Shown: one piece after another, positions 2-25,950 of the stretch | How the letters are laid out: each line of letters begins with the position of its first letter | Numbering within the stretch: position 1 is the stretch's first letter | Assembly (NCBI GenBank): GCA_017427945.1 | Contig: JAFRRT010000004.1 | Span: 1 to 40,902 of the forward strand | Source: Muribaculaceae bacterium | GTDB lineage: Bacteria > Bacteroidota > Bacteroidia > Bacteroidales > Muribaculaceae | Reading direction: 5' to 3' | Length of the DNA: 40,902 bases | The notes under the pieces: generated by a model | The model's input: only the letters and a program-made list of their open reading frames with translations | Told to the model about the DNA's origin: nothing | Databases searched by the model: none | Position numbers and translations under genes: made by a program

Positions 2-2116
2 ATCATTTCAGGTGACGACCGTGCGCCAGAGGTGCTTGCCTATGGTGACCGTCCGTTGGATGAGAAACGCATTCCTGCCAACATGGGGCACTGGCTGGCC
101 AATTACAAGGGACAGATGGAGTATTTGCAGGAGCATCCTGAGTTGGTTATTAGCAACAAATTGAACGAGCCTACTCGTGTCGCAAGTGTGGCTCCGCTGC
201 TCACGGCCATGTGGGATCAGCAGGAACCCTACTACAACCATTGCCCTGTGTATAATGGCAAGTTCTGTGTCACTGGTTGCCCTGCCACTTCGTTGGCAAT
301 GGTGTTCTATTACTGGAAATATCCTGTAGGCCCCACTCCTGCTGTTTCGGGTTACGACAGTTACGATTTCCAAGTCGAGCCTCTGCCTTCCATCACCTTT
401 GATTGGGACAATATGATTGACGACTACCTGAATGGTTATACTGATGCCCAGGCCGATGCTGTGGCTTGGTTGATGCGTTACATCGGTCAGGAAGAGGAGA
501 TGGATTACTCCCCAACCGGCAGTGGTGCCTATGGTAGCGATATCTTGCGTGCAGTGAAATTCTTTGGTTACAACTCCAGTATGGCTCAACTTTACTACAA
601 GTATTCCTACAGCGACAGTCGCTGGGTTGGCATGATTCAGGAGGAGTTGGCGAACAACCGCCCCATTGTGTATTGTGCTTCCGATAGTAATGCTGGTGGC
701 CATGCCTTCAATGTCGATGGCTATGATTCAACCAACGATACCTACCACATTAACTGGGGTTGGAGTGGCGATGGCAACTGCTATTGCGTGCTCAATGACT
801 TCACTGACGGTCACTACACGTTCGATGACAATCAGCAGATGATTATCGGTATCCAGCCTCCTTATATGGGACCGACTATCGTGCCCAGTGTCAAGAATAT
901 GGCTATCGAGTCCTATGCCGAGAAAACTGCTACCGATGTTCTCACGGTTTACGGCTATTATCTGGAGAATGACGTGACGTTGACATTGAATGATCCTAAT
1001 GGCGTCTTCTCGATTGATGCTGACCATGTGTCGTTGAGTGATGCGGATGCTGGCAAAGACATCAATGTGACCTATTCTCCCCAGGAACTGGGTACGCACA
1101 GTGCAACCATCACTATGCACAGCGAGGGGGCTGAGGATGTGGTGGTTAACTTGACGGGTACCTCTATCTTTGAAACTCATAATCCCGTAATGCTCGATGC
1201 AAATGAAGACTATATCAAATTAACCGAATTCCGTGCCGATTGGACAGACGAGACGCCTGCTAAGAATGTGGAGAGTTATACCTTGGAGGTGAAGAACAAA
1301 TCGATTATTATGGAGTTGGGCGAGGCCGACTTCAGTGACTGCTATTTTCAGGGCTCTAGTGTCATTTCACATTGGCAGGATTACTTCCCTGAGGGTTGGG
1401 TTTACAATGGAGATCAGTTATTTACTGGAAACGGTTGCATCCAGTTGGACTCAGAGGGTGAAATTCTCACACCCGAGTATGATCTGGCTGGCTATGACAA
1501 GATTACCGTTAAGATAAAAGCCAAGAGTTATAAATCATGGTATCAATCAGGTATTACGATCTCGACCAGTCTCCAGTCAATTCACGTTGATCTGGAACCC
1601 AATTTTACCGACTACGTGTTTGTGCTTGACTGTGCCGACGTAGACCAGGTGTCCATCAAGGGTGATAATTATCCGAACGACTATGGATCGATCGCAAACA
1701 TCCAAATCCTAGCAGGTGATGCTAGCGAGCCTTCAAAACTCAAAGCCGTCAACGAGGAAGGAGATGCTGATTATCGCTTGATTACCGGTATTACCCCCGA
1801 CAAGTTCTACACTGTCAAGAACTTGACCGCTGGTGGTACGTTCTTCTACAGAGTAAAGGCCCACTATACAGATGATAGTTGGAGCTCATGGAGCAAAGCA
1901 AAGACCGTGACTCTCTTTGGCGAAGGCCATGGCTTCGCTCCTGGTGATGTGAACCACGATAGCAATGTTTCAATTGCTGACGTGACCGCTCTCATTGACA
2001 TGCTTCTCGGTGGTGGTAGCGGTTGCGAGATCTGCGCCGATGTCAATGGTGATAACGAAGTATCTATCGCCGACGTGACTGCGTTGATAGATTTGTTGCT
2101 GCAAAGTGCTAATTAA
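2..2116 (+). CDS. C10 (streptopain-like) cysteine peptidase with C-terminal dockerin-like module, 5' partial
   Basis: Secreted papain-fold peptidase of family C10. The frame is open to the left edge, so the signal peptide and most of the Spi propeptide lie outside; the first visible residues (IISGDDRAPEVLAYGD) are the end of a Spi domain. The catalytic Cys is in TGCPATS (codon 278-280) and the catalytic His in GGHAFNVDGYD (codon 701-703), followed by the conserved INWGW. After the peptidase come one Ig-like domain (about 890-1170), an FnIII-like domain interrupted by a roughly 140-residue choice-of-anchor-like insert (about 1290-1730), and two dockerin-like calcium loops (DVNHDSNVSIADV and DVNGDNEVSIADV) up to the stop. 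It has the same architecture as the peptidases at 14623 and 18200. A strong terminator follows. The family call is secure; the substrate is unknown. Confidence 0.92.
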   Translation: MISGDDRAPEVLAYGDRPLDEKRIPANMGHWLANYKGQMEYLQEHPELVISNKLNEPTRVASVAPLLTAMWDQQEPYYNHCPVYNGKFCVTGCPATSLAMVFYYWKYPVGPTPAVSGYDSYDFQVEPLPSITFDWDNMIDDYLNGYTDAQADAVAWLMRYIGQEEEMDYSPTGSGAYGSDILRAVKFFGYNSSMAQLYYKYSYSDSRWVGMIQEELANNRPIVYCASDSNAGGHAFNVDGYDSTNDTYHINWGWSGDGNCYCVLNDFTDGHYTFDDNQQMIIGIQPPYMGPTIVPSVKNMAIESYAEKTATDVLTVYGYYLENDVTLTLNDPNGVFSIDADHVSLSDADAGKDINVTYSPQELGTHSATITMHSEGAEDVVVNLTGTSIFETHNPVMLDANEDYIKLTEFRADWTDETPAKNVESYTLEVKNKSIIMELGEADFSDCYFQGSSVISHWQDYFPEGWVYNGDQLFTGNGCIQLDSEGEILTPEYDLAGYDKITVKIKAKSYKSWYQSGITISTSLQSIHVDLEPNFTDYVFVLDCADVDQVSIKGDNYPNDYGSIANIQILAGDASEPSKLKAVNEEGDADYRLITGITPDKFYTVKNLTAGGTFFYRVKAHYTDDSWSSWSKAKTVTLFGEGHGFAPGDVNHDSNVSIADVTALIDMLLGGGSGCEICADVNGDNEVSIADVTALIDLLLQSAN
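1925..1995 (+). repeat. 71-bp dockerin segment identical to 17743-17813
   Basis: First dockerin loop of the left-edge peptidase. It is identical base for base to the same region of the 1101-aa peptidase, including synonymous positions. Flanking bases differ on both sides. Confidence 0.95.
1982..2079 (+). repeat. 98-bp dockerin segment identical to 20435-20532
   Basis: End of the first loop plus the linker and second loop of the left-edge peptidase, identical base for base to the 787-aa peptidase. It overlaps the 1925-1995 block by 14 bp, so the module is a mosaic of two paralogues. Confidence 0.95.
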
Positions 2117-2139
2117 ACTATAACGTTTCTAATGACCGC

Positions 2140-2182
2140 AAGGCTCAGGCATCCAAATGTGATGTCTGAGCCTTGTTTGATT
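2140..2182 (+). terminator. Rho-independent terminator of the first C10 peptidase
   Basis: A 14-bp stem with one G-T wobble has arms AAGGCTCAGGCATC (2140-2153) and GATGTCTGAGCCTT (2161-2174), separated by a 7-nt loop. A T-rich tract (GTTTGATTTG) follows. It starts 24 nt after the stop codon. Confidence 0.85.
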
Positions 2183-2189
2183 TGTACGA

Positions 2190-2252: not shown

Positions 2253-3494
2253 TTACTTTATTTCCTGGCCCATGAGGAAGGTCCTCGCGATGATGGGAGT
2301 GGTGTAGGAGTAGGGGATGAAGTCAATCGAGGGGATGGGCGCGGTGATGAAGAAGTTGGCGATTTTGCCCTTGGCGATGCTGCCGTAGTCCTTGCTCAAG
2401 TCCATGGCAGCTGCTGTGTTGATGGTAGCGGCGTTGATGGCCTCAGCAGGCAACAGACGCATCTTGATGCAAGCCAGTGAAACGACAAACTTCATGTCAC
2501 CGCTAGGCGTGGAACCGGGATTGTAGTCACTGGCAGTGGCCACGGGCAGACCTGCCTCAATCATCTTGCGGGCGGGAGCAAACGGCATATTCAGGAAGAA
2601 CGAGGTGCCAGGTAGTCCCGTGGGGATGGTGTCGGTGCCCTTGAGCATCTCGATGTCCTCGTTAATCATGCTCTCCAGGTGATCGACCGACACGGCATTG
2701 TGCTTCACGCCCACCTCGACTCCACCTGACGGAGCCAACTCTTGCACATGAATTTTTGGCCTCATGCCCCACTTGGCTCCAGCCTCAAGGATGCGTGAGG
2801 TTTCATCGGGTGTGAAGAAGCCCTCATCACAGAAGACGTCGATGAAGTCGGCCAACTTTTGCTTGCCTACTTCAGGAATCATCTCGCTGATGAGCATGTC
2901 AACATACTCGCCCTGACGACCGGCATATTCCCTACCGACGGCATGCGCGCCCAGGAAGGTGGAAACTACCTTGATGGGTGATGTCTCGCTAATGCGGCGG
3001 ATGACGCGCAGCATCTTGAGTTCATCCTCGGTATTCAGACCGTAGCCGCTTTTGATCTCGACGGCACCGGTTCCTTTGGCAATGATTTCACGCACGCGAC
3101 GCATAGCCTGAGCGTAGAGCTCATCCTCGCTCAAGAGGTGCAGGCGGTCGGCCGAATTGAGGATACCTCCGCCACGACGGGCTATTTCGGCATAGGAGAG
3201 GCCGCGGATTTTGTCCACGAACTCGCCCTCACGACTGCCGGCATACACGATGTGAGTGTGACTGTCGCACCATGAGGGCAGCACTGTGCCACCCTGAGCG
3301 TCGATGACGTCCCAATCCTCCTCAGGCGTGGGCATGGTTGCCATCTCGCCCCAAGAGTCAAAGCGGCCGCCGTCAACGAGCAGCCAGGCGTCGCCGATGC
3401 AGTTGAGTGTTGCCATCTCGCTGCCCCGCAGGCAATGTTTCTTGTCGAAATCAATGCCTGCAAGACAAGCGATGTTCTTAATCAATCTTTTCAT
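2253..3494 (-). CDS. hutI: Imidazolonepropionase
   Basis: Third step of histidine degradation: hydrolysis of 4-imidazolone-5-propanoate to N-formimino-L-glutamate in the cytoplasm. It is an amidohydrolase-fold metalloenzyme of 413 aa, the normal length. The metal-binding HxH is at residues 79-81 (DSHTHIVYAG). Other hallmarks are EIKSGYG near 147-152, His184 in LGAHAVGREY, His249 in KIHVQEL, His272 in VDHLESM and Asp323 in TASDYNPGS. Its start overlaps the end of hutH by 17 bp, so the two are probably translationally coupled. It is the last gene of the ftcD-hutU-hutH-hutI operon and is followed by a hairpin terminator. No motif is missing. Confidence 0.97.
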   Translation of the reverse strand: MKRLIKNIACLAGIDFDKKHCLRGSEMATLNCIGDAWLLVDGGRFDSWGEMATMPTPEEDWDVIDAQGGTVLPSWCDSHTHIVYAGSREGEFVDKIRGLSYAEIARRGGGILNSADRLHLLSEDELYAQAMRRVREIIAKGTGAVEIKSGYGLNTEDELKMLRVIRRISETSPIKVVSTFLGAHAVGREYAGRQGEYVDMLISEMIPEVGKQKLADFIDVFCDEGFFTPDETSRILEAGAKWGMRPKIHVQELAPSGGVEVGVKHNAVSVDHLESMINEDIEMLKGTDTIPTGLPGTSFFLNMPFAPARKMIEAGLPVATASDYNPGSTPSGDMKFVVSLACIKMRLLPAEAINAATINTAAAMDLSKDYGSIAKGKIANFFITAPIPSIDFIPYSYTTPIIARTFLMGQEIK

Positions 3495-4965
3495 TCTGCA
3501 GGAACACTACCGATTTTGCAATGTGCGGATACATGGGCTGGTCCTCGTTGATGAAGGGCACAACCTTGCGATAGTCGGCAAAGACATGCTCAAGTACGGG
3601 CGATGACTTCAACGGACGGCGGAACTCCAATGCCTGAGCAGCGTTGAAGAGCTCGATTGCCAGCACGCGCTCGGTGTTTTCAACGACTTTGCAGAGTTTC
3701 ACACCAGCGTTGGCACCCATGCTCACGTGGTCTTCCTGGCCCTGTGAGGTGGGGATGGTGTCGGCCGACGAGGGCATACACAGCGTCTTGCTCTGGCTGG
3801 CGATGGCAGCAGCGGTGTACTGCGGAATCATGAAACCGCTGTTCACACCGGGCTGTGCCACGAGGAAGCTGGGCAGGTCACGGGTGCCGGAAACTAGCTT
3901 GTAGGTGCGGCGTTCCGAGATGTTGCTCAGTTCGGCCATAGCAATGCACAGGAAGTCCATGGGCATGGCGATGGGCTCACCATGGAAGTTACCGGCCGAG
4001 ATGATGAGATCGTCATCGGGGCAAACTGTGGGGTTGTCGGTGGCTGAATTGATTTCTGTGTCGATAACCGAGCCGACGTAGCGGATGGTGTCCTTTACTG
4101 AGCCATGCACCTGAGGGATGCAGCGGAACGAGTAGGGATCCTGCACGTTAACCTTGGGCTGACGGATGAGCTCACTGCCGTCAAGAAGCTCACGCATACG
4201 CGCGGCGGTCTCGATTTGGCCCTGATGGGGACGAACGGCATGCACAGCGTGGGTGAACGGCTCAACGCGGCCATCATATGCCTCCAGCGAGATGGCGGCA
4301 ATGACATCGGCCCACTTACTCAGGCGTTCGGCTTTAATCATGGCCCAAACAGCGTGAGCACTCATGTTCTGGGTTCCGTTAAGTAATGCCAGACCTTCCT
4401 TAGAACCGAGTTTGATAGGCTCCCAACCCAATTTCTTGCACAAGTCGCCACCGCTCATGAGTTCACCCTTGTACTCAACCTCTCCAAGCCCAACGATGGG
4501 CAGACAGAGGTGAGCCAGCGGCACGAGGTCGCCAGAAGCGCCTACCGAGCCCTGCTTGTAGACAACGGGATAAACGTCGTTGTTAAACAAGTCGATGAGT
4601 CGCTCCACGGTATCGAGTTTCACGCCCGAATAACCATAGCTTAATGACTGCACCTTTAACAGGAGCATAATCTTGACGATGTCGTTGGGCACACGTTCGC
4701 CCACGCCGCAGGCGTGAGACATCATCAGGTTGATCTGCAGTTGCGACAACTGGTCATTGCTGATGGAAATCTTGCACAGCGACCCGAAGCCTGTGGTCAC
4801 ACCATAAATGGGCTTGTCGCTCTCAGCAATCTTCTTGTCAAGGTATTCACGGCAGTGGCTGATGCGCTTGATGGCATCGGCACTGAGTTTTAGCGAATGA
4901 TGGCCTTCAATGATCTCGGCAATCTTTTGGATTGTGAGATGTTCGGCACTGATTTGATGTGTCAT
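3478..4965 (-). CDS. hutH: Histidine ammonia-lyase
   Basis: First step of histidine degradation: non-oxidative deamination of L-histidine to trans-urocanate and ammonia. The 495-aa length is typical. The MIO cofactor triad Ala143-Ser144-Gly145 sits in GSVGASGDLVPLAH, and the catalytic Tyr54 in YGVTTGFGS. The late SQGQEDHVSMG motif of the aromatic ammonia-lyase family is also present. It follows hutU after 28 bp and overlaps hutI. Single-copy, intact and clearly part of the hut operon. Confidence 0.97.
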   Translation of the reverse strand: MTHQISAEHLTIQKIAEIIEGHHSLKLSADAIKRISHCREYLDKKIAESDKPIYGVTTGFGSLCKISISNDQLSQLQINLMMSHACGVGERVPNDIVKIMLLLKVQSLSYGYSGVKLDTVERLIDLFNNDVYPVVYKQGSVGASGDLVPLAHLCLPIVGLGEVEYKGELMSGGDLCKKLGWEPIKLGSKEGLALLNGTQNMSAHAVWAMIKAERLSKWADVIAAISLEAYDGRVEPFTHAVHAVRPHQGQIETAARMRELLDGSELIRQPKVNVQDPYSFRCIPQVHGSVKDTIRYVGSVIDTEINSATDNPTVCPDDDLIISAGNFHGEPIAMPMDFLCIAMAELSNISERRTYKLVSGTRDLPSFLVAQPGVNSGFMIPQYTAAAIASQSKTLCMPSSADTIPTSQGQEDHVSMGANAGVKLCKVVENTERVLAIELFNAAQALEFRRPLKSSPVLEHVFADYRKVVPFINEDQPMYPHIAKSVVFLQNEKID

Positions 4966-4993
4966 GTGAATGATATTTTAGGTTGTTCAATAA

Positions 4994-7021: not shown

Positions 7022-7044
7022 GATATCCTTGTTTTTAGTCTTTT

Positions 7045-8748: not shown

Positions 8749-8807
8749 ACTCATTTGATAATCAGAAGTTTTTGTTTTTGTTTTATGTTTAAAGGTTAAT
8801 TTTCCTC

Positions 8808-11936: not shown

Positions 11937-14315
11937 TCAATGTTGAGTGAGCAACATGTCGATAAGTGCTGTTACGTCACCGATTGAGATCTTGCTATCT
12001 TGATTTACATCGGCCGCATCTACATTGATTTCCTCGGAATTAGGACTCAACAGGTAGTCAATGAGTGCCGTCACGTCACTGATTGACAATTTACCGTCGT
12101 CGTTCACGTCACCCAAGATGAATTCGGGTATTTCGGGGAATACAATGGAGTAAGTGCTGGTGCCCTTGAGCCCTTCTTCAGTGCCGCTGGTGTAATAATA
12201 GGTCTTAATGAAGTACCTCCAGCCATCCATCACGTTATCCATGTCAAACTGCACTGTTGTTGATGCTCCGGGAGCCAGTGTGATGAATTGGGTCTTAATT
12301 TGTACATTGCTTCCTGTAGTACCATATATGTTCTTATAGAGCTTCGCCGTGATGTCTTCGCTATAAGTCGTCGAGCCGTTGTTCGTGATGGTCAGAATGA
12401 CACTGAATTTATCACTGGTGATGATTTTGTTGGTCGCATCGGTTACATCAAGGATCTCAAGGTTTGCCGACAGGTCGGCGGCAGGCATCTCTTCAATGTT
12501 GATGACATGACTGGCAATAGGATCACTGCCGTCATCATTGAATGAGAATGTGAGCGTATAAGACCTAGCTGCATCAGGATAGTATCTATAGGTAATGTCA
12601 CCGGTCTCGCCAGGCTCCAGACCCACATATCCCGAGGCCATGAAAGTGCCATCGACGAACATGTGCAGTAACAGGTTGTCAGATACGCCGTTGTTGGTTA
12701 AGTTCACATTGATATTAACCGGGCGTGTGGGATGCATGCTGCCGCTGTGAGTAATGCTGTTCACCGTGTAGTTGGGTGTAGCTGCTGTTCCATAGCCTTC
12801 AAAAGTGCAGGTGTTGCCGTTGATGGTTACTTCGATATAGTTCTTGTCATACCCTATGCAAGGTTTCCAGTTGTTGGCATTGCGCTCGCTGCAAATGGGC
12901 AGAATGCGGTAAGTGCCGTTGCTTAGTCCGGCACCAAAACTCAGTTCACGCTCGTTGAGGTCGAAATATTTGCCGGGAGTTGATGAGCTGGTATAGACAC
13001 TCATGAGTTTCTTGACCATTGTTGAGCCTTGGTACAGTCCCCAACCGAAGTCGGCCGCGAACACATGGGCTGTGTAATTATAGAATCGAGCCGAAACGAT
13101 TGCAGTGAAGTTACTACTGCTATTGTTGCGTGTGTCGGTAAAACTGTTGAGTATCATTTTGGTTACCGTGAACATCACTTCATCGTTTATTTCGTTGCCG
13201 GGCTCAATGCCCACAACAGCGGCTTGATCATAGATGTATCCATAGGCACCAGTGGCACTGCCGGTACCTTGCCTGTCGGGGTTGAGCACATTTAGCAGAT
13301 AGTAACCGTTACTTTGTCCGTTCCAGCCCCAATTGATGTGGAACATGCCGTTGCCGTCATAGCCGTCGCACACGAAGGCGTGTCCGCTCTCGGCCTTGCT
13401 GGCACTGAATATTACTGGGCGGGAAGCAGCGAGCTCGCTGTAGATGGCATCTACCCACCCTTGGGTCGTATAACTGGTGCGCCTCAAAGTATGCGCATCA
13501 CTGTAGCCGAAGTAGGAAGACAGACACAAGGGAATGCGGGTGGTCGTAGCCCCAGAGCTGGCGGTTTTGAAATTCATCTCTACCGCTTGGGCACAGTATA
13601 GTGTGAGCTTTGCTGCTTCAAGGGCGTTGCTGCTGGTGGTGTCGGTCGTCTGATAGGTGTTTTGCATAGCTCCCCAGTTAAAATCCACGACAGGTAATTC
13701 GGGCATCACTATACCGAGCGTAGAACTGGTATAAGCGGGAATTGCAGTTGTGGGACGGGGTGGCCATTGCCAATAGTGCATTACTTGGGCCAATGCAGTG
13801 GCGACGCAGCCGGCATAGGCATGTTTGCCGTTGGGCAAGAAAGGCAACAGAATGTTGTAGGGGGCATTCTGTGACCACACGGCTCTAACAAGAGGAGTGA
13901 TGGCTCCATACGTTCGCAGTTGGGTGGCGGCTATGGCGCCATTGTCCAGCTCCTCGATTTGGGCGGTGTAGCCTTCGAGCAGCTCCTGCATGGCGGGAGG
14001 CAGATCGGTGACATCAAATGTGCCGTGGTCGCTGTATCCAAGCACGGCGGGTGCGCGGTCATCACCGGCAACGATGACGAAACCGCTGTTCTGACGCTCA
14101 GCGTTGAATACATAAAACGCGGCATTGCCGGCTGTGGGAGATGCACCAAAGTGCGGCGCCTTGTGGGCTATCTTTAGCCCTGAAGCCGGCATCCCGTGAC
14201 TGGCCATGAAGTTTGTTGCAATACTTTTTGCTTGGTTTTCGGTAATGGTTCCTGCCCACGCGGTGCTCATCACCGCCAGACAAAGGAGAAATAACAAGGT
14301 TTGAACTCTTTTCAT
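11937..14315 (-). CDS. C10 (streptopain-like) cysteine peptidase with C-terminal dockerin-like module
   Basis: Secreted cysteine peptidase, about 792 aa from the Met at 14315. That start gives a clean signal peptide (MKRVQTLLFLLCLAVMSTAWA); the 12 codons upstream have no such character. A Spi propeptide follows to about residue 115 (FVIVAGDDRAPAVLGYS). Cys170 lies in YAGCVATALAQVMHYW and His312 in SGHAFVCDGYDG, with INWGW after it. The middle (about 390-715) has beta-sandwich, CARDB-like character: two alternating segments about glycine-rich turns and NNG motifs. The end is a dockerin-like pair (DVNDDGKLSISDV, DVNQDSKISIGDV) with a longer inter-loop linker than its paralogues. It is divergent from the peptidase at 14623 and lacks the nested FnIII architecture of the three plus-strand paralogues, so it is an older relative. 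Confidence 0.92.
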   Translation of the reverse strand: MKRVQTLLFLLCLAVMSTAWAGTITENQAKSIATNFMASHGMPASGLKIAHKAPHFGASPTAGNAAFYVFNAERQNSGFVIVAGDDRAPAVLGYSDHGTFDVTDLPPAMQELLEGYTAQIEELDNGAIAATQLRTYGAITPLVRAVWSQNAPYNILLPFLPNGKHAYAGCVATALAQVMHYWQWPPRPTTAIPAYTSSTLGIVMPELPVVDFNWGAMQNTYQTTDTTSSNALEAAKLTLYCAQAVEMNFKTASSGATTTRIPLCLSSYFGYSDAHTLRRTSYTTQGWVDAIYSELAASRPVIFSASKAESGHAFVCDGYDGNGMFHINWGWNGQSNGYYLLNVLNPDRQGTGSATGAYGYIYDQAAVVGIEPGNEINDEVMFTVTKMILNSFTDTRNNSSSNFTAIVSARFYNYTAHVFAADFGWGLYQGSTMVKKLMSVYTSSSTPGKYFDLNERELSFGAGLSNGTYRILPICSERNANNWKPCIGYDKNYIEVTINGNTCTFEGYGTAATPNYTVNSITHSGSMHPTRPVNINVNLTNNGVSDNLLLHMFVDGTFMASGYVGLEPGETGDITYRYYPDAARSYTLTFSFNDDGSDPIASHVINIEEMPAADLSANLEILDVTDATNKIITSDKFSVILTITNNGSTTYSEDITAKLYKNIYGTTGSNVQIKTQFITLAPGASTTVQFDMDNVMDGWRYFIKTYYYTSGTEEGLKGTSTYSIVFPEIPEFILGDVNDDGKLSISDVTALIDYLLSPNSEEINVDAADVNQDSKISIGDVTALIDMLLTQH

Positions 14316-14348
14316 AATGATAATTTGTTTATGGTGATTGATTCCCTG

Positions 14349-14356
14349 CAAAGATA
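14349..14356 (-). promoter_or_regulatory. -7 element of the minus-strand C10 peptidase
   Basis: TATCTTTG on the minus strand matches TAnnTTTG and lies 33 nt upstream of the chosen ATG at 14315. No TTTG is found at the expected -33 spacing. Confidence 0.5.
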
Positions 14357-14622: not shown

Positions 14623-17600
14623 ATGAAGAAATTGTTATTTCTCTTGACTGCCATTATGGTGGCATTGTCAGTGTCGGCTGCTCCTGTGGATCAGGCAACA
14701 GCCCAAAGGAAAGCAAAAAGCTACTTAACCAATGAGCTTTTTGCCGGCAAATTAATGGCTCCCGCTGCTTTGAATCCCGTTCTGCTGAAGGCTGAGATGG
14801 GCGAAGGCAAGGTAAATCAGCCTGTGTATTACATTTACAACACTTCTGAGACCTTCCTCGTTGTGGCCGGTGATGACCGTGCCGAGGAAATCCTCATGGT
14901 AGGTGACCGTCCCTTGAAGGATATCAACAACCTGGCTCCTGGTATGAAGGACATTCTCAATCAGTACAAGGAGGAAATCCAGTACCTGCATGAGCATCCG
15001 GGTCTGGTGGTTGATCCTATTATTAAACCCGCAAACCGGACCTCACTACGTGCGACCTCTTATTTGTTGACAGCACTATGGGACCAGGAGGCTCCGTACT
15101 GGAACCAGTGCAAGTTTACCTATAGTGGTACAACCTATCAGTGCTTGACGGGTTGCCCCGCTACTTCGGCATCGATGGTGCTCTATTACTGGAAGTACCC
15201 TGAGAGTGTCGCTGCCCTTCCTTCCTATACAGCCACATTGGATTTATCATACTATAACAGTGTGAACTTTACCTATCCTGCTTTGTCTGCAACAACCTTT
15301 GACTGGGCTAACATGAAGGACAGCTACAGTGGTAGCTACACCACCGCTCAGGGTAATGCAGTTGCAACGCTGATGCGTTACGTGGGCCAGGCCGAGAACA
15401 TGATGTATGGTACTGAGAGCGCTGGCGGTAGCGGTATTTATGTTTCCGAGAATTATAGGATTGCCGATATGTTCAAACTTTTCGGATATGAATCCACTGC
15501 CCAAAATGCTGAAAAATCAAACTATACCGCTACTGCTTGGGCTAGCCTGATTCAAGGAGAAATTGCCGCAGGCCGTCCTCTCGTATATTGTGCAGTGTCG
15601 AGCAGTGGAGGCGGTCATGCCTTTAATGTTGACGGTTACGACAGTAGCAGCAACAAGTACCACGTGAACTTCGGTTGGAGTGGCGACGGTAATAGCTGGT
15701 ACTCGATGAATTCGTTCTCATACAGTGGTTACACCTTCAACCAGAGCCAGCAGGCTATCATCGGTGTTCAGCCCCCCAGTGGCCAGTCCACCACACCCGT
15801 ATTGACCGTTAATCCCACCTCGTTGACTTTCACCGGTGCTCAGACTGGTCAGACCTACACCAAGACCTTTACTGTAACTGGTACCGACTTGCGCGGAAAT
15901 GTGACCGTATCGTCTAACAACGGCACCTTCACCGTTTCGCCTACGACTATTACCCAGGCTCAGGCCGAGGCTGGTGCTACCGTGACCGTGACCTACAAGC
16001 CCACATCAAGTGGCACCCAGAGCGGTACCATCACTGTATCGAGCAGTGGCGCAGCCGATAAGACCGTTAGCGTTTCGGGTACCGCTACCACGAAACCGGT
16101 GATCACAGTTAATCCCACCTCGCTCAACATGAGCACCTCAGTGGGCACTCCCGTGACCCAGACGTTTACCGTAACTGGTACCAACCTGTCGAGTAACGTT
16201 TACCTGTCATGCAGTGGAACTGGCTTCTCGATTGACAAATCGTATATAACCAAGACCCAAGCAAGTCAGGGTTATACCGTGACGGTTACCTACAATCCCA
16301 CTGCAGTCGGCACTCACACTGGCACTGTGACGCTGACCAGTTCTGGCGCTGATGACGTTACCCTCACTCTGAACGGTACTGCTGTAGGTACTCCCGAGTT
16401 GACCGTTAATCCCACCTCATTGTCATTCAATGCAACTGTAGGTCAATCGCAGACCAAGACCTTCAACGTAACTGGTACAAATCTGACGGGTAATGTGATG
16501 CTCGCCGTGAGTGGTGCAGGTTTCTCGATTGATAAGACCACAATCACTCAGAATGCTGCTACCAACGGTGCTACTGTAACCGTAACTTACACGCCCACCA
16601 CTGGCGGAACTCACACTGGTACTGTCGCTCTTACATCAGCAGGCGTACAGCAGGTTACCGTAGCCCTCACAGGTACTGCAACCACAGTTCCCACTCTGTC
16701 GGCTAATCCCACCTCGCTGAATTTCCAGACCACGGTTGGTACTCCTGTAACCCAGGCATTCCAGCTGAGTGCTGCCAACCTTGAAGGCAATGTTACTTTG
16801 GCTGTTCAAGGCGAAGGCTTCACCATCGACAAGACCAACATTCTCCCGGGTGCCGCTAACAATGCTTATGTCAATGTGACCTACACCCCGACGACATTTG
16901 GTACAACTACTGGTACTGTTACCATCACGAGCCCCAATGCTCAGACGGTTACTGTTACCTTGAATGGCCAGGCCGACCTCGTGAAGTATGCTCCCGTCAT
17001 GCTGCCTGCTGATGAGGCTTACATTAACCTGACCAAGTTCCGTGCCGACTGGACCGACCAGACACTTGCAACCAACGTTTCAAGCTATACCCTTGAGGTG
17101 AGCGCCAAGCCCGAAGAACCCGTAGAGCCCGAGGTTGTATTGCTCAGCTCTGTTGCTGGTACCGACTTCACGGGCAGCTCAACCGGATATTATGACATCA
17201 CTTTGCCCGATCCTTGGGGTGGCACCAACGTGCGTGGTGGTCTCAACTCGGTTATCTACTTCAGGAATAATTACCAGGGAACCGGTACTGCAGGTAACAT
17301 CACCTACACCATTCCCGCTGGTTATGAGAATGCTACCTTCACGATGAAGATTACCACTGCTACCACCACTGACGGTGCTGGTAACTTGGCTGTGGCTACT
17401 CCGCAGACTGCTGCCGTGAACCACAACTTCTCCGCTGGTCAAACCTATGCTTGGGTAGTGACTGCAAGCAGTGGTGAGAAGATCACTATCACGACGTCCG
17501 ATGCCAACTATTCGCCTGACATCGCTCTGCTCCAGGTTTATGCTGGTGACGCTACCGTAACGCTGAATGCTACCGAGACTGGCGATGCCAACTACCGCTT

Positions 17601-17928
17601 GATTACCGGTATTACCGACAAGTTCTACACCGTTGAGAACCTCACCGCCGAGGGCACCTTCCTCTACAAGGTGAAGGCTCTCTACATCGACGGTACCGAG
17701 AGCGAGTGGAGCAACATCGAGGAGGTAACCCTGTTCGAGAATGGCCATGGCTTCGCTCCTGGTGATGTGAACCACGATAGCAATGTTTCAATTGCTGACG
17801 TGACCGCTCTCATCGACTTGCTGCTTGGCGTTGGTGACGGCTGCTCGATCTGCGCCGATGTCAATGGTGACAACAACGTATCGATCGCCGACGTTACTGC
17901 CCTCATCGACATGCTCCTTGGCGTGTAA
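14623..17928 (+). CDS. C10 (streptopain-like) peptidase with four Ig-like repeats and a dockerin-like module
   Basis: Large secreted peptidase, 1101 aa. It has a signal peptide (MKKLLFLLTAIMVALSVSAAP), a Spi propeptide to about residue 125 (LVVAGDDRAEEILMVGD), and a peptidase with Cys178 (TGCPATSASMVLYYW) and His332 (GGHAFNVDGYD). The motif after His reads VNFGW (Phe350), where the other three C10 proteins here have NWGW; by memory this matches Trp357 of SpeB. Four tandem Ig-like domains of 99-100 aa (from about residue 390 to 785) each begin near VNPTSL. An FnIII domain with a nested insert (about 830-980) and a dockerin-like pair complete it. Nearest relatives are the plus-strand peptidases at 2 and 18200, but its FnIII insert differs in sequence from theirs. 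Protease substrate unknown; cleavage of host or microbial proteins is inference. Confidence 0.93.
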   Translation: MKKLLFLLTAIMVALSVSAAPVDQATAQRKAKSYLTNELFAGKLMAPAALNPVLLKAEMGEGKVNQPVYYIYNTSETFLVVAGDDRAEEILMVGDRPLKDINNLAPGMKDILNQYKEEIQYLHEHPGLVVDPIIKPANRTSLRATSYLLTALWDQEAPYWNQCKFTYSGTTYQCLTGCPATSASMVLYYWKYPESVAALPSYTATLDLSYYNSVNFTYPALSATTFDWANMKDSYSGSYTTAQGNAVATLMRYVGQAENMMYGTESAGGSGIYVSENYRIADMFKLFGYESTAQNAEKSNYTATAWASLIQGEIAAGRPLVYCAVSSSGGGHAFNVDGYDSSSNKYHVNFGWSGDGNSWYSMNSFSYSGYTFNQSQQAIIGVQPPSGQSTTPVLTVNPTSLTFTGAQTGQTYTKTFTVTGTDLRGNVTVSSNNGTFTVSPTTITQAQAEAGATVTVTYKPTSSGTQSGTITVSSSGAADKTVSVSGTATTKPVITVNPTSLNMSTSVGTPVTQTFTVTGTNLSSNVYLSCSGTGFSIDKSYITKTQASQGYTVTVTYNPTAVGTHTGTVTLTSSGADDVTLTLNGTAVGTPELTVNPTSLSFNATVGQSQTKTFNVTGTNLTGNVMLAVSGAGFSIDKTTITQNAATNGATVTVTYTPTTGGTHTGTVALTSAGVQQVTVALTGTATTVPTLSANPTSLNFQTTVGTPVTQAFQLSAANLEGNVTLAVQGEGFTIDKTNILPGAANNAYVNVTYTPTTFGTTTGTVTITSPNAQTVTVTLNGQADLVKYAPVMLPADEAYINLTKFRADWTDQTLATNVSSYTLEVSAKPEEPVEPEVVLLSSVAGTDFTGSSTGYYDITLPDPWGGTNVRGGLNSVIYFRNNYQGTGTAGNITYTIPAGYENATFTMKITTATTTDGAGNLAVATPQTAAVNHNFSAGQTYAWVVTASSGEKITITTSDANYSPDIALLQVYAGDATVTLNATETGDANYRLITGITDKFYTVENLTAEGTFLYKVKALYIDGTESEWSNIEEVTLFENGHGFAPGDVNHDSNVSIADVTALIDLLLGVGDGCSICADVNGDNNVSIADVTALIDMLLGV
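15790..16976 (+). repeat. Four tandem ~297-300 bp Ig-like domain repeats
   Basis: In-frame repeats inside the 1101-aa peptidase. The landmark TAATCCCACCTC recurs with starts spaced 300, 297 and 297 bp (counted from the preceding GTT/GCT at 15808, 16108, 16405 and 16702). The peptidases at 2-2116 and 18200-20563 have one copy each, so this gene expanded by internal duplication. Confidence 0.85.
17743..17813 (+). repeat. 71-bp dockerin segment identical to 1925-1995
   Basis: Partner copy of the first-loop identity block. Beyond 17813 the two genes diverge at many synonymous sites. Confidence 0.95.
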
Positions 17929-18199: not shown

Positions 18200-20563
18200 A
18201 TGAAAAAAATTCTATTTCTTTTTGCAGTAGCTATTACAGCTCTGCAAATGTCAGCTGCCGATGTGACTCCATCACAGGCACAGGCCGCAGCCAACGCTTT
18301 TGTTGCAAAACAAGTAGCTACCGGTCATCTTAAAGCATCTGCCGCTTCAGGCCTTCAGCTTGTCAAGTCTGAAAAATCGGTAGCCAAGCCTTCGGCTGTG
18401 GATTACTACATCTTCAACTCATCAAAAGCCTATGTAGTGGTTTCTGGTGATGATTTGGCACCCCAGATTCTGATGTACGGTGATGAAGGTGCTCTTGACT
18501 TGAATAATATTCCCCCCGCCATGCAGTGGCTGCTCAACAAATATAAATATCAGATTGACGGTCTCAAGGCTGGTACAATGGCACCGGTGAAGCTTCCCAA
18601 GTTTGCCACCACGCCCGTTGCACCGCTGGTAAATGCTAACTGGGACCAGAGTTCTCCTTACAACAACCAGTGCCCCTCAGGTGCAGTTACAGGTTGTCCT
18701 GCCACCTCGCTGGCTATGTGCTACTACAAGTGGAAATGGCCCGAGACTTATCCTGCATGTGCAGCCCTCTCGGGAACTGGTGGTGTCTCTGCTGCGGCCC
18801 TGCCGGAACGCGAAGCCGACTGGGATAACATTATCGACGAGTACACCGGCCCCACCAACTACACCTCTACAGCTGACCAGAAAAACGCTGTGGCATGGCT
18901 GATGCGCTATGCTGGCCAGTCTATTCCAGACTATTACTACAGTTCTAGCGCCAGTGGTGCCAATGACCCCGAAATCTATCAGGGCTGCCTCAACATGGGT
19001 TACACCGATGCCCAGTACCTTATGCTCACTGAGCTTCTTGAATCTGGTTGGAGCTACTATAATAGCGAACAGTATTACACCGATGAACAGTGGAACGAGT
19101 GGATGCTGAACGAGCTGCATAATGGCCGCCCCATCGAATATTTGGCTTATGACGTCCAATACGGCTATAGCGTTTCGGGTCACGCCTTCAACGTGTTTGG
19201 CTGCGACGCCAACGGTAAGTATTATGTGAACTGGGGCTGGAGTGGCGACAGCAATGGCTATTGCACGCTTCACAACTTCACCACCGCTACCGGTGCAACT
19301 GGTCAAGCAGGATCCTACGTCTTCAATTATGGCGAGGCCATGATTATCGGTATCGAGCCTCCCGCAGGTGCGCTCACCGATCCCAGAATCAAGGTGAACC
19401 CCACTACGCTCACCATGAACACTATCGTAGGCAATCCTGTCACCGAAACCATCAACGTCAAAGGTTACAACCTCGTTGGCGATGTGGCTTTGAGCATTAG
19501 CGGCGATAACGCATTCTCACTGAGCACTACCAGCATCAGTATGGCTCAGGCCACCAATGGGGTGGATGTCACTGTAACCTATAATCCCGCTGCTGTCGGC
19601 TCCAATGAGGCTACCATCACGTTGACCAGCACCGATGCTCCTGATGTGACGGTTAAGCTCAACGGTACCGCCGACCTGGAGGTTTATGAGCCTGTAATGC
19701 TCGAGGCTAGCAATATCACCTCCACTTCGTTCAAGGCTACCTGGACCGATGAGACTCCTGCCCAGAACGTAGAGAGCTACACCCTCTATGTTTCGGCCGA
19801 GCCCTTCCTGCCCCCTGTTGCCTTGCTCGACACTACCGATTGGACCTCGAATAATAATGTGCCCACTGGCTGGACAGCCTCAGGTCTGAACTATTATGGC
19901 TCCAACAGCGCATGCTACCTGAGTTCATACGGCAGCAGCTATGTACAGAGCAAGACCTACGACCTCACTGGCTATGACAAGGTGACCGTGATGGTTTACA
20001 CCGAGCCCTATGGCAGCAGTAACACCATGACTGTAGCTACCAGCGTTGAAAGCAAGACCATCAACCTCTCGGGCAGCTCGTTCTATTGGGTTACTTTCGT
20101 TCTGGATTGCGCCACCAGTGACTATGTGAAACTCACCACCACAGGTCTGCCTGACATGAGGTACATGAAGGTTTATGCCGGCGACCTCACCGCAAATCAG
20201 CTCAAGGCTTCCGAAACTGGTGATGAGAACTATCGTGTCATCACGGGTATCACCGGCAAGAGCTACACCGTTACTAACCTGGCCGAGAACGGCTCCTTCT
20301 ACTTCTACGTGATGGCCAACTACGTCGATGGTGGTACTGGCGATAGCAACGTAATGGAAGTAACTCTGTTCGATAGTGGCCATAGCTATGATGTTGGTGA
20401 TGTGAACCACGATGGTAACGTATCCATCGCCGATGTGACCGCTCTCATTGACATGCTTCTCGGTGGTGGTAGCGGTTGCGAGATCTGCGCCGATGTCAAT
20501 GGTGATAACGAAGTATCTATCGCCGACGTGACCGCTCTTATCGATGTGCTTCTCACTCATTAA
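18200..20563 (+). CDS. C10 (streptopain-like) peptidase with C-terminal dockerin-like module
   Basis: Secreted peptidase, 787 aa. Order of parts: signal peptide (MKKILFLFAVAITALQMSAA); Spi propeptide (YVVVSGDDLAPQILMYGD); peptidase with Cys166 (TGCPATSLAMCYYKW) and His328 (SGHAFNVFGCD), then VNWGW; one Ig-like domain (from about 395 to 495); an FnIII-like domain split by a choice-of-anchor-like insert (about 530-665); two dockerin-like loops (DVNHDGNVSIADV, DVNGDNEVSIADV). The insert shares the landmarks YDLxGYDKxTV and FVLDCA with the gene at the left edge. Its own promoter and terminator are homologous to those of the preceding gene, so the two look like tandem duplicates transcribed separately. 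Substrate unknown. Confidence 0.93.
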   Translation: MKKILFLFAVAITALQMSAADVTPSQAQAAANAFVAKQVATGHLKASAASGLQLVKSEKSVAKPSAVDYYIFNSSKAYVVVSGDDLAPQILMYGDEGALDLNNIPPAMQWLLNKYKYQIDGLKAGTMAPVKLPKFATTPVAPLVNANWDQSSPYNNQCPSGAVTGCPATSLAMCYYKWKWPETYPACAALSGTGGVSAAALPEREADWDNIIDEYTGPTNYTSTADQKNAVAWLMRYAGQSIPDYYYSSSASGANDPEIYQGCLNMGYTDAQYLMLTELLESGWSYYNSEQYYTDEQWNEWMLNELHNGRPIEYLAYDVQYGYSVSGHAFNVFGCDANGKYYVNWGWSGDSNGYCTLHNFTTATGATGQAGSYVFNYGEAMIIGIEPPAGALTDPRIKVNPTTLTMNTIVGNPVTETINVKGYNLVGDVALSISGDNAFSLSTTSISMAQATNGVDVTVTYNPAAVGSNEATITLTSTDAPDVTVKLNGTADLEVYEPVMLEASNITSTSFKATWTDETPAQNVESYTLYVSAEPFLPPVALLDTTDWTSNNNVPTGWTASGLNYYGSNSACYLSSYGSSYVQSKTYDLTGYDKVTVMVYTEPYGSSNTMTVATSVESKTINLSGSSFYWVTFVLDCATSDYVKLTTTGLPDMRYMKVYAGDLTANQLKASETGDENYRVITGITGKSYTVTNLAENGSFYFYVMANYVDGGTGDSNVMEVTLFDSGHSYDVGDVNHDGNVSIADVTALIDMLLGGGSGCEICADVNGDNEVSIADVTALIDVLLTH
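20435..20532 (+). repeat. 98-bp dockerin segment identical to 1982-2079
   Basis: Partner copy of the second identity block. Upstream of 20435 this gene differs from the left-edge gene (GATGGTAACGTATCC against GATAGCAATGTTTCA). Confidence 0.95.
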
Positions 20564-21761: not shown

Positions 21762-21770
21762 TCTAAAACA

Positions 21771-21896: not shown

Positions 21897-21906
21897 ACTC
21901 AAGAAG

Positions 21907-22971
21907 ATGAAGACGATAGCGGTCATCGGCACCCGTGGTTTCCCTGGCATCCAGGGCGGTGTCGAGGCTCACAGCTATCACCTATATACCCGCATGCAGG
22001 ACGTCCGCATCAGGCTCTACCGCCGCCGCGCCTACCTGAGTGAACAATCGTCCCAAACCTTCCCCAACATCGAGTACATTGACCTGCCCTCGACCCGCAT
22101 CAAGGGTTTTGAGGCGGTGTGGCATACCTTCTTGAGTGTCACTCATATCCTGTTTCACCGTCCCGATGTGGTGCACATCCACAACATTGGGCCAGGCATG
22201 TTCGCCCCCTTGTTGCGGCTGGCTGGCCTGCCCGTTGTGATGACCTATCACAGTCCCAACTACGAGCACTCCAAGTGGAGCGCTCCAGCACGCTGGCTGC
22301 TGCGCCAGTGCGAGAAAATATCTCTCCACTTCAGCAACCGTGTCATCTTTGTCAATAAGCACCAGATGGAGAAATGCGGAGCACTCGACAAAAGCGTTTT
22401 CATCCCCAACGGCATCGACAGCGTGACACGTAGCGACTCCACCTTTTTTCTTGAGAAACATGGTATCCGCGCAGGCCAGTATCTGCTGGCCGTGGGGCGC
22501 CTCACGCCCGAGAAGGGTTTTGAATATCTCGTCGAGGCAGCCAATCGCTTGCCACAGGTCAGCCAGATAGTTATTGCTGGTGCAAGCGACCACGACAGTG
22601 CCTATCGCAGCCAGTTGGAACGGCTCGATACCGGCAAAAAAGTGATCTTTACAGGTTTTACTATAGGCGAAGACCTGCGTCAACTCTACAGCCACGCCCG
22701 CCTCTTTGTCCTGCCCTCGGTCAACGAGGGCTTCCCGATGGTGTTGCTCGAGGCGATGGCCTACGGCTTGCCCATCCTGTGCAGTGACATTCCCGGTACC
22801 CGCCAGGTCAATTTGCCCGAGCAGGATTATTTCACCGTTAAGAATGTCGGTTCACTGTGTGATGCCATCAACCGCCTGCTCGACACTCCAGCCGAGCCGC
22901 AGCATTACGACCTTGAGAAATACAACTGGCAGTCCATTGCCGACGCCACCCGCCAGCAACTGGATTGTTAA
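21907..22971 (+). CDS. GT4-type glycosyltransferase with DUF1972-like N-terminus
   Basis: 354-aa GT-B glycosyltransferase, likely cytoplasmic and acting on lipid-linked glycan precursors. The N-terminal VIGTRGFPGIQGGVEAH is the motif of the DUF1972-type glycosyltransferases found in polysaccharide loci. The C-terminal domain has GRLTPEKGFEYLVEAA and an EX7E motif (Glu274 to Glu282, EGFPMVLLE) that contacts the nucleotide sugar. Donor and acceptor are unknown. Its stop codon overlaps the stop of the convergent CotH-like gene in the shared tetranucleotide TTAA (22968-22971). It may belong functionally to the polysaccharide locus on the other strand. Confidence 0.9.
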   Translation: MKTIAVIGTRGFPGIQGGVEAHSYHLYTRMQDVRIRLYRRRAYLSEQSSQTFPNIEYIDLPSTRIKGFEAVWHTFLSVTHILFHRPDVVHIHNIGPGMFAPLLRLAGLPVVMTYHSPNYEHSKWSAPARWLLRQCEKISLHFSNRVIFVNKHQMEKCGALDKSVFIPNGIDSVTRSDSTFFLEKHGIRAGQYLLAVGRLTPEKGFEYLVEAANRLPQVSQIVIAGASDHDSAYRSQLERLDTGKKVIFTGFTIGEDLRQLYSHARLFVLPSVNEGFPMVLLEAMAYGLPILCSDIPGTRQVNLPEQDYFTVKNVGSLCDAINRLLDTPAEPQHYDLEKYNWQSIADATRQQLDC

Positions 22972-24455
22972 TTCCCAATTCCTTCTTGTTCATTGCCCCA
23001 TTGCGTTTGCAGCCAGGCTACCTTCTTGTGGAAACAAGGCTTCAGGTACTGGTTGACACGCAGGCCGATTACACTGCTCTGGCTTTGGGGCCAACGTTTG
23101 AAATCGGCGGTACCGGCCTGTTCAATCTTGGCGGCAAAGCTGTCAATATAGTTGTCCATTAGGGGATAGACGTCGTTGTAGAAATGCTGCCAATGGTAGC
23201 GGACACGCTCCTGGAAATGCGGGAATTTGGCAATCTCGGCAATCCATCTGCATCGGCAATAACTCGGCTGATTCTCGTAGATGAACTCGTTAAAAAGATA
23301 GTCTTTGCTATAGCGTGTGAATGAGCTGCCGCAATCCCACATCGGCCCGAAGATGAGCTTGGTGCTGTCGCCACGCTGCTTGTGCATGAAGCAGCTGCCC
23401 GAGAAGGCTTCGGGGTTATCAACGGCCTCTTGAACCAAGTAATAGATTGCCAGCGAGTCAATGTCGATGTAGCGCTCCCATTCAACACTGTCTTTGTCCT
23501 CGACATAGATGGCAGAATCTGCCTCAAGCAGGAAATCGGTGATATAGTTGCGTTGCTCAGCGCTTAACACCTCGGGGGATTTGGGCGTGACCCAGAAAGG
23601 CTCTCCACTGCCTTCAGTGAAAGAGATATTACCAGGCTCCTCATAGTTATCAATCTCGAGCAACCATCCGCCTGTGATTCTAACAGAATCGGTCTCGTTG
23701 TCATTTTGCTCAACGATGTTGACACGATCTTTCCCGACACGAATCTGCTCGGTCAGGAAGTAGAGACCGATGTACTGGCCGTTGAGCACCACCTCGACAG
23801 GCTCCTGACGGGGGTTCCATGCCATACCCATGCGGCGCCCAAGTTCAAAGGGCAGGTTATCGTTCATCAGTCCCATCCACATGCCTTCGTTGGCCAGCAG
23901 TACCCAGTGTCGGTTGGAGGGCATGCCCAGCATCCCGTATTTTTCATCCAGTTTCAGCCGATATGGTTTCTTTTCACAGTTGGTCCAGGTGGCGTTGCCG
24001 CGTCCCTTGATCTGCGTTCCCAACGGCGCCTCGGCCGAGCCTATTGACTGATAACCCTCAATTCCCATGTTGTCGAGCCACCATTTGGCCCGCAGGTATT
24101 CCTCCTTGCTGACGATGTCGCGATATCCCGCGGTGTTGATGAACAGTACAGGCAGCGTGCCCGAGTAGGTGGGCATAGGCTTCAATTCGTCGCCCAAGAC
24201 GGCACCTATGAGTACATTCAGGTCAGCGATGGTGATTTCCTTGTCGCCGTTGATGTCGTAGGCATAGGTGTAGAGCGAGTGATATGGCTTTCCCGCTATG
24301 ATGGCATCCACCATAGCATTAACGTCAGCGATGTTGACCTCCCAGTCACAGTTCAAGTCACCGCGCGGCCGCAGCCCCGACTGGGCATTGACGAGCAGCG
24401 GCACTATCATCATCACTGCCAATAGAGCGGACAAATATATGTTGTTTCTTTTCAT
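22968..24455 (-). CDS. CotH kinase-like protein with N-terminal dockerin-like module (copy 1)
   Basis: 495-aa secreted protein. A signal peptide (residues 1-24, MKRNNIYLSALLAVMMIVPLLVNA) is followed by two dockerin-like loops (DLNCDWEVNIADV, DINGDKEITIADL; about 31-90) and a CotH-like domain (about 105-480: TQIKGRGNATW, YRLKLDEKYGM, NGQYIGLYFLTEQIRVGKDRV, FGPMWDCGSSF). CotH proteins are atypical protein kinases known from Bacillus spore coats. The usual WDFD near the metal site reads WDCG here. The paralogue 25 bp upstream has the same layout. It is the last gene of the minus-strand polysaccharide cluster; no terminator space exists before the convergent gene. Kinase activity is unproven. Confidence 0.82.
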   Translation of the reverse strand: MKRNNIYLSALLAVMMIVPLLVNAQSGLRPRGDLNCDWEVNIADVNAMVDAIIAGKPYHSLYTYAYDINGDKEITIADLNVLIGAVLGDELKPMPTYSGTLPVLFINTAGYRDIVSKEEYLRAKWWLDNMGIEGYQSIGSAEAPLGTQIKGRGNATWTNCEKKPYRLKLDEKYGMLGMPSNRHWVLLANEGMWMGLMNDNLPFELGRRMGMAWNPRQEPVEVVLNGQYIGLYFLTEQIRVGKDRVNIVEQNDNETDSVRITGGWLLEIDNYEEPGNISFTEGSGEPFWVTPKSPEVLSAEQRNYITDFLLEADSAIYVEDKDSVEWERYIDIDSLAIYYLVQEAVDNPEAFSGSCFMHKQRGDSTKLIFGPMWDCGSSFTRYSKDYLFNEFIYENQPSYCRCRWIAEIAKFPHFQERVRYHWQHFYNDVYPLMDNYIDSFAAKIEQAGTADFKRWPQSQSSVIGLRVNQYLKPCFHKKVAWLQTQWGNEQEGIGN

Positions 24456-24480
24456 GTAGTCGTATTCAATATCTCACTAA

Positions 24481-25950
24481 TTATTCCTCATCATCAACTC
24501 CCCACTGGGTGTTGAGCCAGTCAATCTTATTATGAATAAATGACTTGAATCTATTTTTCTGATATTTAATATCATATTTGGACCAACGCACACCGTCAGC
24601 ATTGAACGCAGGGGTGATATAATCTACAAAGTCATCCATGAATTGATCCATCTCCTGGCTCATGAAGTCTGACCCGTTGAACGCCTGCCAATGCTCGCGC
24701 ACCTTTTCCTGGAAATGCGGGAACTTACAAATTTCCTCAATCCAATGGGATGTGAATTTCGTTGGTTGCTGGAAGATGAATTTGTCGAACTCAGTGACGC
24801 CATAGATGGCGTGGCGTTGGAAGGCATTTCCGAAGTCCCACACAGGACCGAAGTTCAGTTTGGTGCTGTCGCCGCGATGTTTGTACATATAGCAACTGCC
24901 GGCAAAATACTCCAAATCGTCCATGATTTCTCCAACGATATAGTACATGGCGAGCGTGTCGATGTCAATATACTTTTCCCATTCCGTGCTGGTCTTATCA
25001 TCTGTATAGATGGCATCGTTTGCCTTTTGAATATAGTTTTTGATATAATTCTCCTGTTGCCAAGAGAGCATCTCGGGCGATTCAGGTGTGACCGCAAGCG
25101 TAACGTCGTTTTCCTGCTGCTCTACAAAGTACAAAGTATTGTCCTCATGCGTATTGGTGATCTCAAGCAGCCACCCGCCCGTGATGTAGCCGGGTTTAGT
25201 TTCGCCGTCCATCTGTTCCTCGATGTCGACACGGTGCTTGCCAACGCGAATCTTCTCGGTCAGGAAATACAGACCGATGTATTGACCGTTGAGCACTACC
25301 TCGACAGGCTCTTGGGCAGGGGTATAGGCCAGACCAATGCGTTGGCTCAGTTCAAACCCCATCGTGTTCTTGAGCTTGGCTCGGTTATCGTCAGGATGTC
25401 CCAATAGGCAAAAGTGACGGTTGGTGTGCATCCCCATCAACGGCTGCTTTTCATCGAGTTTGAGACGAAAAGATTTCTTGTCGTAGTGTGTCCACGTGTA
25501 GTTGCCGCGTCCTTTGATTTGCATCCCCAATGGCTCTTCGGCCGAGCCGATGGACTCATATCCTTCAACGCCCATGTTGTCAAGCCACCATTCGGCCCGC
25601 AGGTATTCCTCCTTGCTGTCGATGTCGTGGTGTCCCTCGGTGTTGATGAACATCACGGGCAGCGTGCCCGAGTAGGTGGGCATGGGGTTCACCTTGTCAC
25701 CCAGTATGGCACCGATAAGCACATTGAAATCGGCGATATTGATTTCCTTGTCGCCGTTTACATCAAGGGCATAGGTATAGAACGCATGATAGGGCTTCCC
25801 TGAAATGATGGCCTCCACCAGTGTATTTACGTCCGCTATGTTGACCTCCCAGTCGCAATTCACGTCACCGCGCGGTCGCAGCCCCGACTGGGCAAACACG
25901 CCGGGTATGGTAAACACTGCAATCAGTATGATCAATAATAGCTTCCTCAT
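24481..25950 (-). CDS. CotH kinase-like protein with N-terminal dockerin-like module (copy 2)
   Basis: 489 aa from the Met at 25950, chosen because it begins a signal peptide (MRKLLLIILIAVFTIPGVFA); nine upstream codons are not signal-like. Two dockerin-like loops (DVNCDWEVNIADV, DVNGDKEINIADF) precede a CotH-like domain (MQIKGRGNYTW, FRLKLDEK, NGQYIGLYFLTEKIRVGKHRV, FGPVWDFGNAF). It is clearly a tandem duplicate of the downstream gene, sharing SGLRPRGD, PTYSGTLPV and GSAE landmarks. The second Asp of a typical WDFD motif is Gly here too. It follows the acyltransferase after 44 bp. Role in capsule or surface-protein modification is inference. Confidence 0.82.
   Translation of the reverse strand: MRKLLLIILIAVFTIPGVFAQSGLRPRGDVNCDWEVNIADVNTLVEAIISGKPYHAFYTYALDVNGDKEINIADFNVLIGAILGDKVNPMPTYSGTLPVMFINTEGHHDIDSKEEYLRAEWWLDNMGVEGYESIGSAEEPLGMQIKGRGNYTWTHYDKKSFRLKLDEKQPLMGMHTNRHFCLLGHPDDNRAKLKNTMGFELSQRIGLAYTPAQEPVEVVLNGQYIGLYFLTEKIRVGKHRVDIEEQMDGETKPGYITGGWLLEITNTHEDNTLYFVEQQENDVTLAVTPESPEMLSWQQENYIKNYIQKANDAIYTDDKTSTEWEKYIDIDTLAMYYIVGEIMDDLEYFAGSCYMYKHRGDSTKLNFGPVWDFGNAFQRHAIYGVTEFDKFIFQQPTKFTSHWIEEICKFPHFQEKVREHWQAFNGSDFMSQEMDQFMDDFVDYITPAFNADGVRWSKYDIKYQKNRFKSFIHNKIDWLNTQWGVDDEE

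Follow-up and report, generated by a model that had tools for sequence, protein, structure and literature searches.

The closest described counterpart of the system treated here is, judging from predicted architectures, the cellulosome-like complex of Candidatus Stygibacter (Cloacimonadota), in which secreted enzymes with C-terminal dockerins, including S8 and C25 peptidases and GH57, are accompanied by a single 3755-amino acid scaffoldin with carbohydrate-binding modules (CBMs) and a conserved C-terminal domain (PMC8542988); both systems are known by prediction from genomes only. We analyzed a 40,902-nucleotide stretch (the window) of contig JAFRRT010000004.1 from a Muribaculaceae bacterium (GCA_017427945.1; 2.77-Mb draft, 96% complete), which encodes four C10 peptidases and two CotH proteins with dockerins. 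These six proteins are probably cargo of a genome-wide cohesin–dockerin system that forms a cellulosome-like surface complex, and this complex appears to be built mainly for proteins, not for cellulose. What is new here is a variant architecture of known cohesin–dockerin systems and, with it, a testable question of export.

The system belongs to another phylum than that of Stygibacter and has mostly paired anchor proteins (leucine-rich repeats (LRRs), dockerin, cohesin, and tail) instead of one CBM-bearing scaffoldin. Its adaptors mostly end in a dockerin, its cargo amounts to about 140 proteins, and its C10 peptidases have a dockerin at the place where homologues outside the genus have a C-terminal tail of the type IX secretion system (T9SS). 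The genus is probably Sodaliphilus, whose genomes were reported to have 63 to 107 cellulosome dockerins each. Cellulose degradation was inferred there, and the main text does not mention cohesins (PMC10872696); our analysis adds cohesins, anchors, and a cargo rich in peptidases. A camel rumen study recorded cohesins for certain Bacteroidetes, along with Bacteroidetes bins rich in dockerins, and describes no anchor or cargo for the Bacteroidetes cohesins (PMC6071333). A later camel study placed cohesins in Firmicutes_A bins only (PMC9177762), and the role of dockerins in polysaccharide utilization loci was stated to be still undefined (PMC7480376). All these publications are considered in the parts available to us, as is the open literature, in which we found no description of an LRR–dockerin–cohesin–tail family or of a dockerin-for-tail exchange, no paper joining dockerin, peptidase C10, and Bacteroid, and, for T9SS with piggyback, passages that concern peroxisomes. 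Earlier surveys listed dockerins, and one of them also cohesins, for rumen Bacteroidetes; the present system suggests a possible binding partner for the dockerins of Bacteroidales. It would give gut bacteria a surface complex rich in peptidases and raises the question of whether the T9SS can carry proteins that lack a tail.

With the classical cellulosomes and amylosomes (Clostridium thermocellum and Ruminococcus), the system shares the type I dockerin and cohesin folds and multi-cohesin proteins with a C-terminal dockerin. Classical complexes are anchored through the S-layer or by sortase, whereas here the host is Gram-negative, the tails are of the T9SS type, and cellulases are missing from the complete cargo lists (E up to 1e-14). 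In the complexes of Clostridium perfringens (2jh2, 2w1n, and 2ozn, judged by entry titles), cohesins reside on glycosidases, whereas here most of their carriers are LRR or scaffold proteins without catalytic function.

Dockerin proteins of the window

The features of the six proteins are as follows.
2..2116, + strand: C10 peptidase with I69 and a C-terminal type I dockerin at ~1940-2101 (PF01640 E 5e-50; Dockerin_1 31.1 bits; own profile 81.9 bits)
11937..14351, - strand: C10 peptidase with I69 propeptide, CARDB domains, and a C-terminal dockerin at ~11949-12116 (PF01640 E 3e-59; Dockerin_1 45.1 bits)
14623..17928, + strand: C10 peptidase with I69, ASH/HYDIN-type Ig repeats, and a C-terminal dockerin at ~17758-17919 (PF01640 E 1e-45; Dockerin_1 28.4 bits)
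18200..20563, + strand: C10 peptidase with I69 and a C-terminal dockerin at ~20396-20551 (structure modelled)
22968..24455, - strand: CotH protein with a dockerin at ~24198-24362, shortly past an N-terminal signal peptide-like stretch (PF08757 E 2e-29; Dockerin_1 26.5 bits)
24481..25977, - strand: CotH protein with a dockerin at ~25702-25869, shortly past an N-terminal signal peptide-like stretch (PF08757 E 1e-35; Dockerin_1 28.9 bits)

Open reading frames (ORFs) and Pfam agree with the original prediction, made from the DNA letters alone, of four C10 peptidases with C-terminal and two CotH proteins with N-terminal dockerins. Two corrections concern its gene limits: gene 2-2116 is truncated by the window start, and for two genes the longest ORF (11937-14351 and 24481-25977, respectively) has internal ATG starts. 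All six dockerins score above the Pfam cut-off of 22.9 (26.5 to 45.1 bits). When 217 six-frame stretches of the window, each of at least 60 amino acids, were scanned with a dockerin profile of our own, built from 106 modules of the same genome, the six and no others matched (60.3 to 82.5 bits). The profile is not independent of them, as the scores of five of the six sufficed to make them candidates for its building. In a shuffled control, four of 5500 proteins fell below E 1, the best reaching 8.9 bits. The modules have the two calcium-binding loop–helix repeats of type I dockerins and fit the family profile (PF00404), and the fold modelled for the dockerin of 18200..20563 is that of an ordinary type I dockerin.

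Dockerin complement and cargo of the genome

Pfam dockerin matched 146 stretches of the genome at E up to 10. After the surrounding DNA was fetched, 141 frames carried a dockerin match, 140 of them above 15 bits, a count in which the frames at the ends of C2 and C11 finish in identical residues (possibly one gene) and some frames are truncated at contig or stretch ends. A genome-wide count, as the original prediction had proposed, thus yields about 140 dockerin proteins. The module lies within 10 residues of the C terminus in 111 of these 140 frames, is N-terminal in 19, and is located elsewhere in 10; no cohesin shares the chain in 137. The two loops of a dockerin resemble each other (15.9 of 22 positions), and Ile-Ala at loop positions 10-11 is mostly common to both (72 of the 111 pairs in which both loops were found by pattern). 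We take these to be the contact positions of clostridial dockerins.

Cargo domains were assigned with Pfam at E 1e-5, where each list holds the best 25 of 35-36 families, and from complete lists at E up to 1e-14. Among the 140 frames are 17 C10 peptidases, 28 LRR_5 proteins, and 10 CotH proteins, along with other peptidases (at least six M6 and at least three S8), at least five alpha-amylases, at least five FGE-sulfatase proteins, and at least three each of endonuclease I and GHL10. GH53, CBM26, and CBM20 domains are also present. No cellulase family occurs in the complete lists for the 140 frames (20, 21, and 18 families). The genome therefore combines, as a cellulosome would, a protein of several cohesins with many dockerin-bearing enzymes, and lacks cellulases in those lists.

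Cohesins and their carrier proteins

The window itself yielded no cohesin when scanned with a cohesin profile (best score 3.6 bits), in line with the earlier observation that none was in sight. For the genome this does not hold: the search that had been suggested found at least five modules in four proteins on contigs C6, C18, and C28, which combine the fold of the cohesin family (PF00963) with a profile match, and a sixth, weak and partial match on C21 (19.7 bits). The C6 protein alone, used as a query on the genome contigs, found no relative. The Pfam cohesin model misses three of the four proteins, which may explain why proteins of this kind escaped notice. Each of the 10 genomes sampled from the dockerin-rich genus has cohesins.

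The central carriers form an anchor family with signal peptide, BspA-type LRR, dockerin, cohesin, and T9SS-type tail, encoded by conserved, usually paired genes; dockerin and cohesin adjoin in one chain. The tails are tentatively assigned to the T9SS because TIGR04183 matches 13 and Pfam Por_Secre_tail six of 20 family members (E up to 0.1); the structural matches hardly extend to the tail domain and carry no information on it. Proteins with several cohesins and a dockerin also exist, with two cohesins in this genome and six in two genomes of the genus, which contradicts the earlier view that such dockerins occur without classical scaffoldins. We examined 44 distinct cohesin frames from genomes of the genus, a subset of those existing. 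Among single-cohesin frames, 29 of 33 extend at least 30 residues past the modules, mostly with T9SS tail-like ends, and nine of the 11 frames with two, three, or six cohesins end in a dockerin. The carriers thus appear to follow, roughly and with exceptions, the logic of anchoring versus adaptor scaffoldins. A strict two-tier rule was dropped, as the initial counts (seven of seven for several cohesins with dockerin, 27 of 28 for one cohesin with tail) became nine of 11 and 29 of 33 in the enlarged set.

Beside the two anchors on C28 lies a gene for 571 amino acids (C28:95226-96938 = L066:10227-11939, - strand). Its tail is of the same kind as theirs and its cohesin match is weak and partial (18 bits); it is perhaps a decayed third anchor member. 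One further protein of the window belongs to the tail-bearing class.
38505..40460, - strand: two Cleaved_Adhesin domains and fn3 (Pfam), without dockerin, tails compared by eye
In its C-terminal tail, this protein is very similar to the cohesin protein C28:92919-95018 and to the adjoining 571-amino acid protein. One tail type may serve both Cleaved_Adhesin and cohesin proteins.

A dockerin in place of the export tail

The genome encodes 18 C10 peptidases, 17 of which carry a dockerin, whereas the remaining one, on C14, has no dockerin match and a tail-like end. For comparison outside the genus, we took the top match from each of 30 genomes of other genera, which gave 29 loci and 30 homologous frames, 28 of them (27 genomes) matching through the catalytic part. 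None of the 30 frames, and none of the 28, carries a dockerin. The C terminus is complete in 26 of the 28, with ends that by eye resemble T9SS tails (three less clear, L276-L278). By sequence comparison, then, the genus carries a dockerin within the C10 family where its relatives carry an export tail.

This exchange does not extend to a general exclusion of dockerin and tail, even though the C10 peptidases of this genome obey it. Three dockerin frames of the same genome, two of them cohesin proteins, end tail-like, and in G151, from another family, five of 23 dockerin frames continue for 197 to 292 residues past the dockerin; four of these five end like T9SS tails, one by eye, and one frame is truncated by the stretch. 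In G195, one of three dockerin frames examined has a tail.

Proposed assembly, export, and alternative explanations

In the proposed assembly, each cargo protein would be exported by Sec and would bear, at one end of its chain or the other, a symmetric type I dockerin of the calcium-binding kind. These dockerins would bind cohesins on few proteins, namely the anchor family, further tailed proteins with a single cohesin, and adaptor scaffoldins, which have two to six cohesins and mostly a terminal dockerin of their own. The type IX system would export and anchor the tailed cohesin proteins, onto which the adaptors would dock, so that the cargo (C10, M6, and S8 peptidases, LRR proteins, CotH proteins, and amylases) would stay at the cell surface. 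The modules and their folds, the architectures, the counts, and the phylogenetic pattern were computed; from them we infer the binding, its calcium dependence, the surface location, and the passage of tailless cargo across the outer membrane. The original prediction had surmised that proteases and CotH proteins are brought to the surface by a cohesin-like receptor encoded elsewhere in the genome. The cohesins, unlinked to the window on C6, C18, and C28, fit this, as do the tail-like C-terminal stretches of most single-cohesin proteins.

Several findings weigh against the proposed complex. The two-tier pattern has exceptions, as a dockerin lies at or close to the end of four of the 33 single-cohesin frames, one 190-amino acid protein lacks a tail-like end, three single-cohesin matches are weak or partial, and two of the 11 multi-cohesin frames, both 2-cohesin proteins, have tail-like ends. 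About five cohesins face about 140 dockerins. Two of the anchor tails of this genome (C28:92919 and C18) do not match the T9SS model and the third (C28:90755) remains below its cut-off at 11.9 bits. Signal peptide-like starts occur in 119 of 122 complete dockerin proteins, with a crude detector that also passes 33 of 59 other ORFs, and SprA, found in 22 of 22 genomes, is the sole T9SS component searched. In G151, dockerin and tail are, by their sequences, not mutually exclusive. The 12 comparison genomes outside the genus (none with a Pfam cohesin, 11 without a dockerin match) were selected, not random, which, like the exceptions above, weakens the case. Absence of cohesin outside the genus had to be rejected, as 16 other genomes of the family have Pfam cohesin matches with one to nine dockerin matches each. 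Conversely, profile A1 found no cohesin in G001, of the same family (85% complete, 31 dockerin matches), nor in seven of 13 genomes from the order that have at least 10 dockerin matches.

Loss of the T9SS in the genus was rejected, given SprA in all 22 genomes and overlapping tail counts (8 to 16 in the genus versus 7 to 50 outside). Because SprA is present, the tailless C10 peptidases need another exit route; surface capture by tailed cohesin proteins and co-export with them would both fit. That the dockerin has replaced the T9SS tail, with about 140 cargo proteins binding in the periplasm to cohesins on few tailed carriers and leaving piggyback through the type IX translocon, is a tentative proposal that we regard as rather doubtful.

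The C-terminal position of 111 of the 140 dockerins, and their distribution in the C10 family (17 with dockerin and one with tail here, 0 of 28 with dockerin outside the genus), would also agree with a sorting signal that substitutes for the T9SS tail and is read by the secretion machinery without any role of cohesins. A bare C-terminal tag of this kind (the original prediction had named a sorting or attachment tag as an option) is disfavored because 19 of the 140 dockerins are N-terminal, both CotH proteins of the window included; with the ordinary type I fold of the module and cohesins in every sampled genome of the genus, this makes a sorting signal improbable. The same cohesins speak against dockerins that are mainly calcium-stabilized caps or act within their own chain while cohesins bind unrelated partners. 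Such a role would account for the excess of dockerins over cohesins, for dockerin-rich genomes without detected cohesin, and for the adjoining of both modules in the anchor family and in several proteins of the family outside the genus; with 137 of 140 frames lacking a cohesin in the chain and strong conservation of loop positions 10-11, presumably contact positions as in clostridial dockerins, we consider it unlikely. A genuine cellulosome directed at plant cell walls, proposed in print for Sodaliphilus from its 63 to 107 dockerins per genome (PMC10872696), could draw on the alpha-amylase, GH53, GHL10, CBM26, and CBM20 domains. The cargo is instead rich in C10 (17), M6 (at least six), and S8 (at least three) peptidases and shows no cellulase family in the complete lists, which makes this explanation highly improbable.

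Cohesins and dockerins in other Bacteroidales

Large scaffoldins occur in other families of the order, with eight, five, and seven cohesins in G151 and five in G416, all with YPNP-type T9SS tails, and a 3-cohesin protein of G361 lacks such a tail. At the scaffoldin loci L342 and L343 (G151), L344 (G195), and L347 (G416), five to 10 cohesins were counted, and in L342, L344, and L347 the gene preceding the scaffoldin has a dockerin and a tail. Within the family but outside the genus, L005 and L010 encode proteins of ~1280-1320 amino acids whose single chain contains first a dockerin-like pair and then one cohesin; frames of similar length are found at other loci. No cohesin was found in 18 genomes without dockerin matches either. 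Profile A1 also detected none in G241 and G342, which gave 169 and 110 first-look dockerin candidates. Many of the dockerin matches listed for these two genomes begin at model position 8; the module may be of another type.

Other genes of the window

The genes at 2253-8838 (- strand) presumably form a cluster for the breakdown of histidine, with imidazolonepropionase, histidine ammonia-lyase, urocanate hydratase, and a formiminotransferase. The region 20754-38391 we take to be a surface polysaccharide cluster with glycosyltransferases, acyltransferases, a flippase, and chain-length and export proteins. Both CotH genes are located inside this putative cluster.
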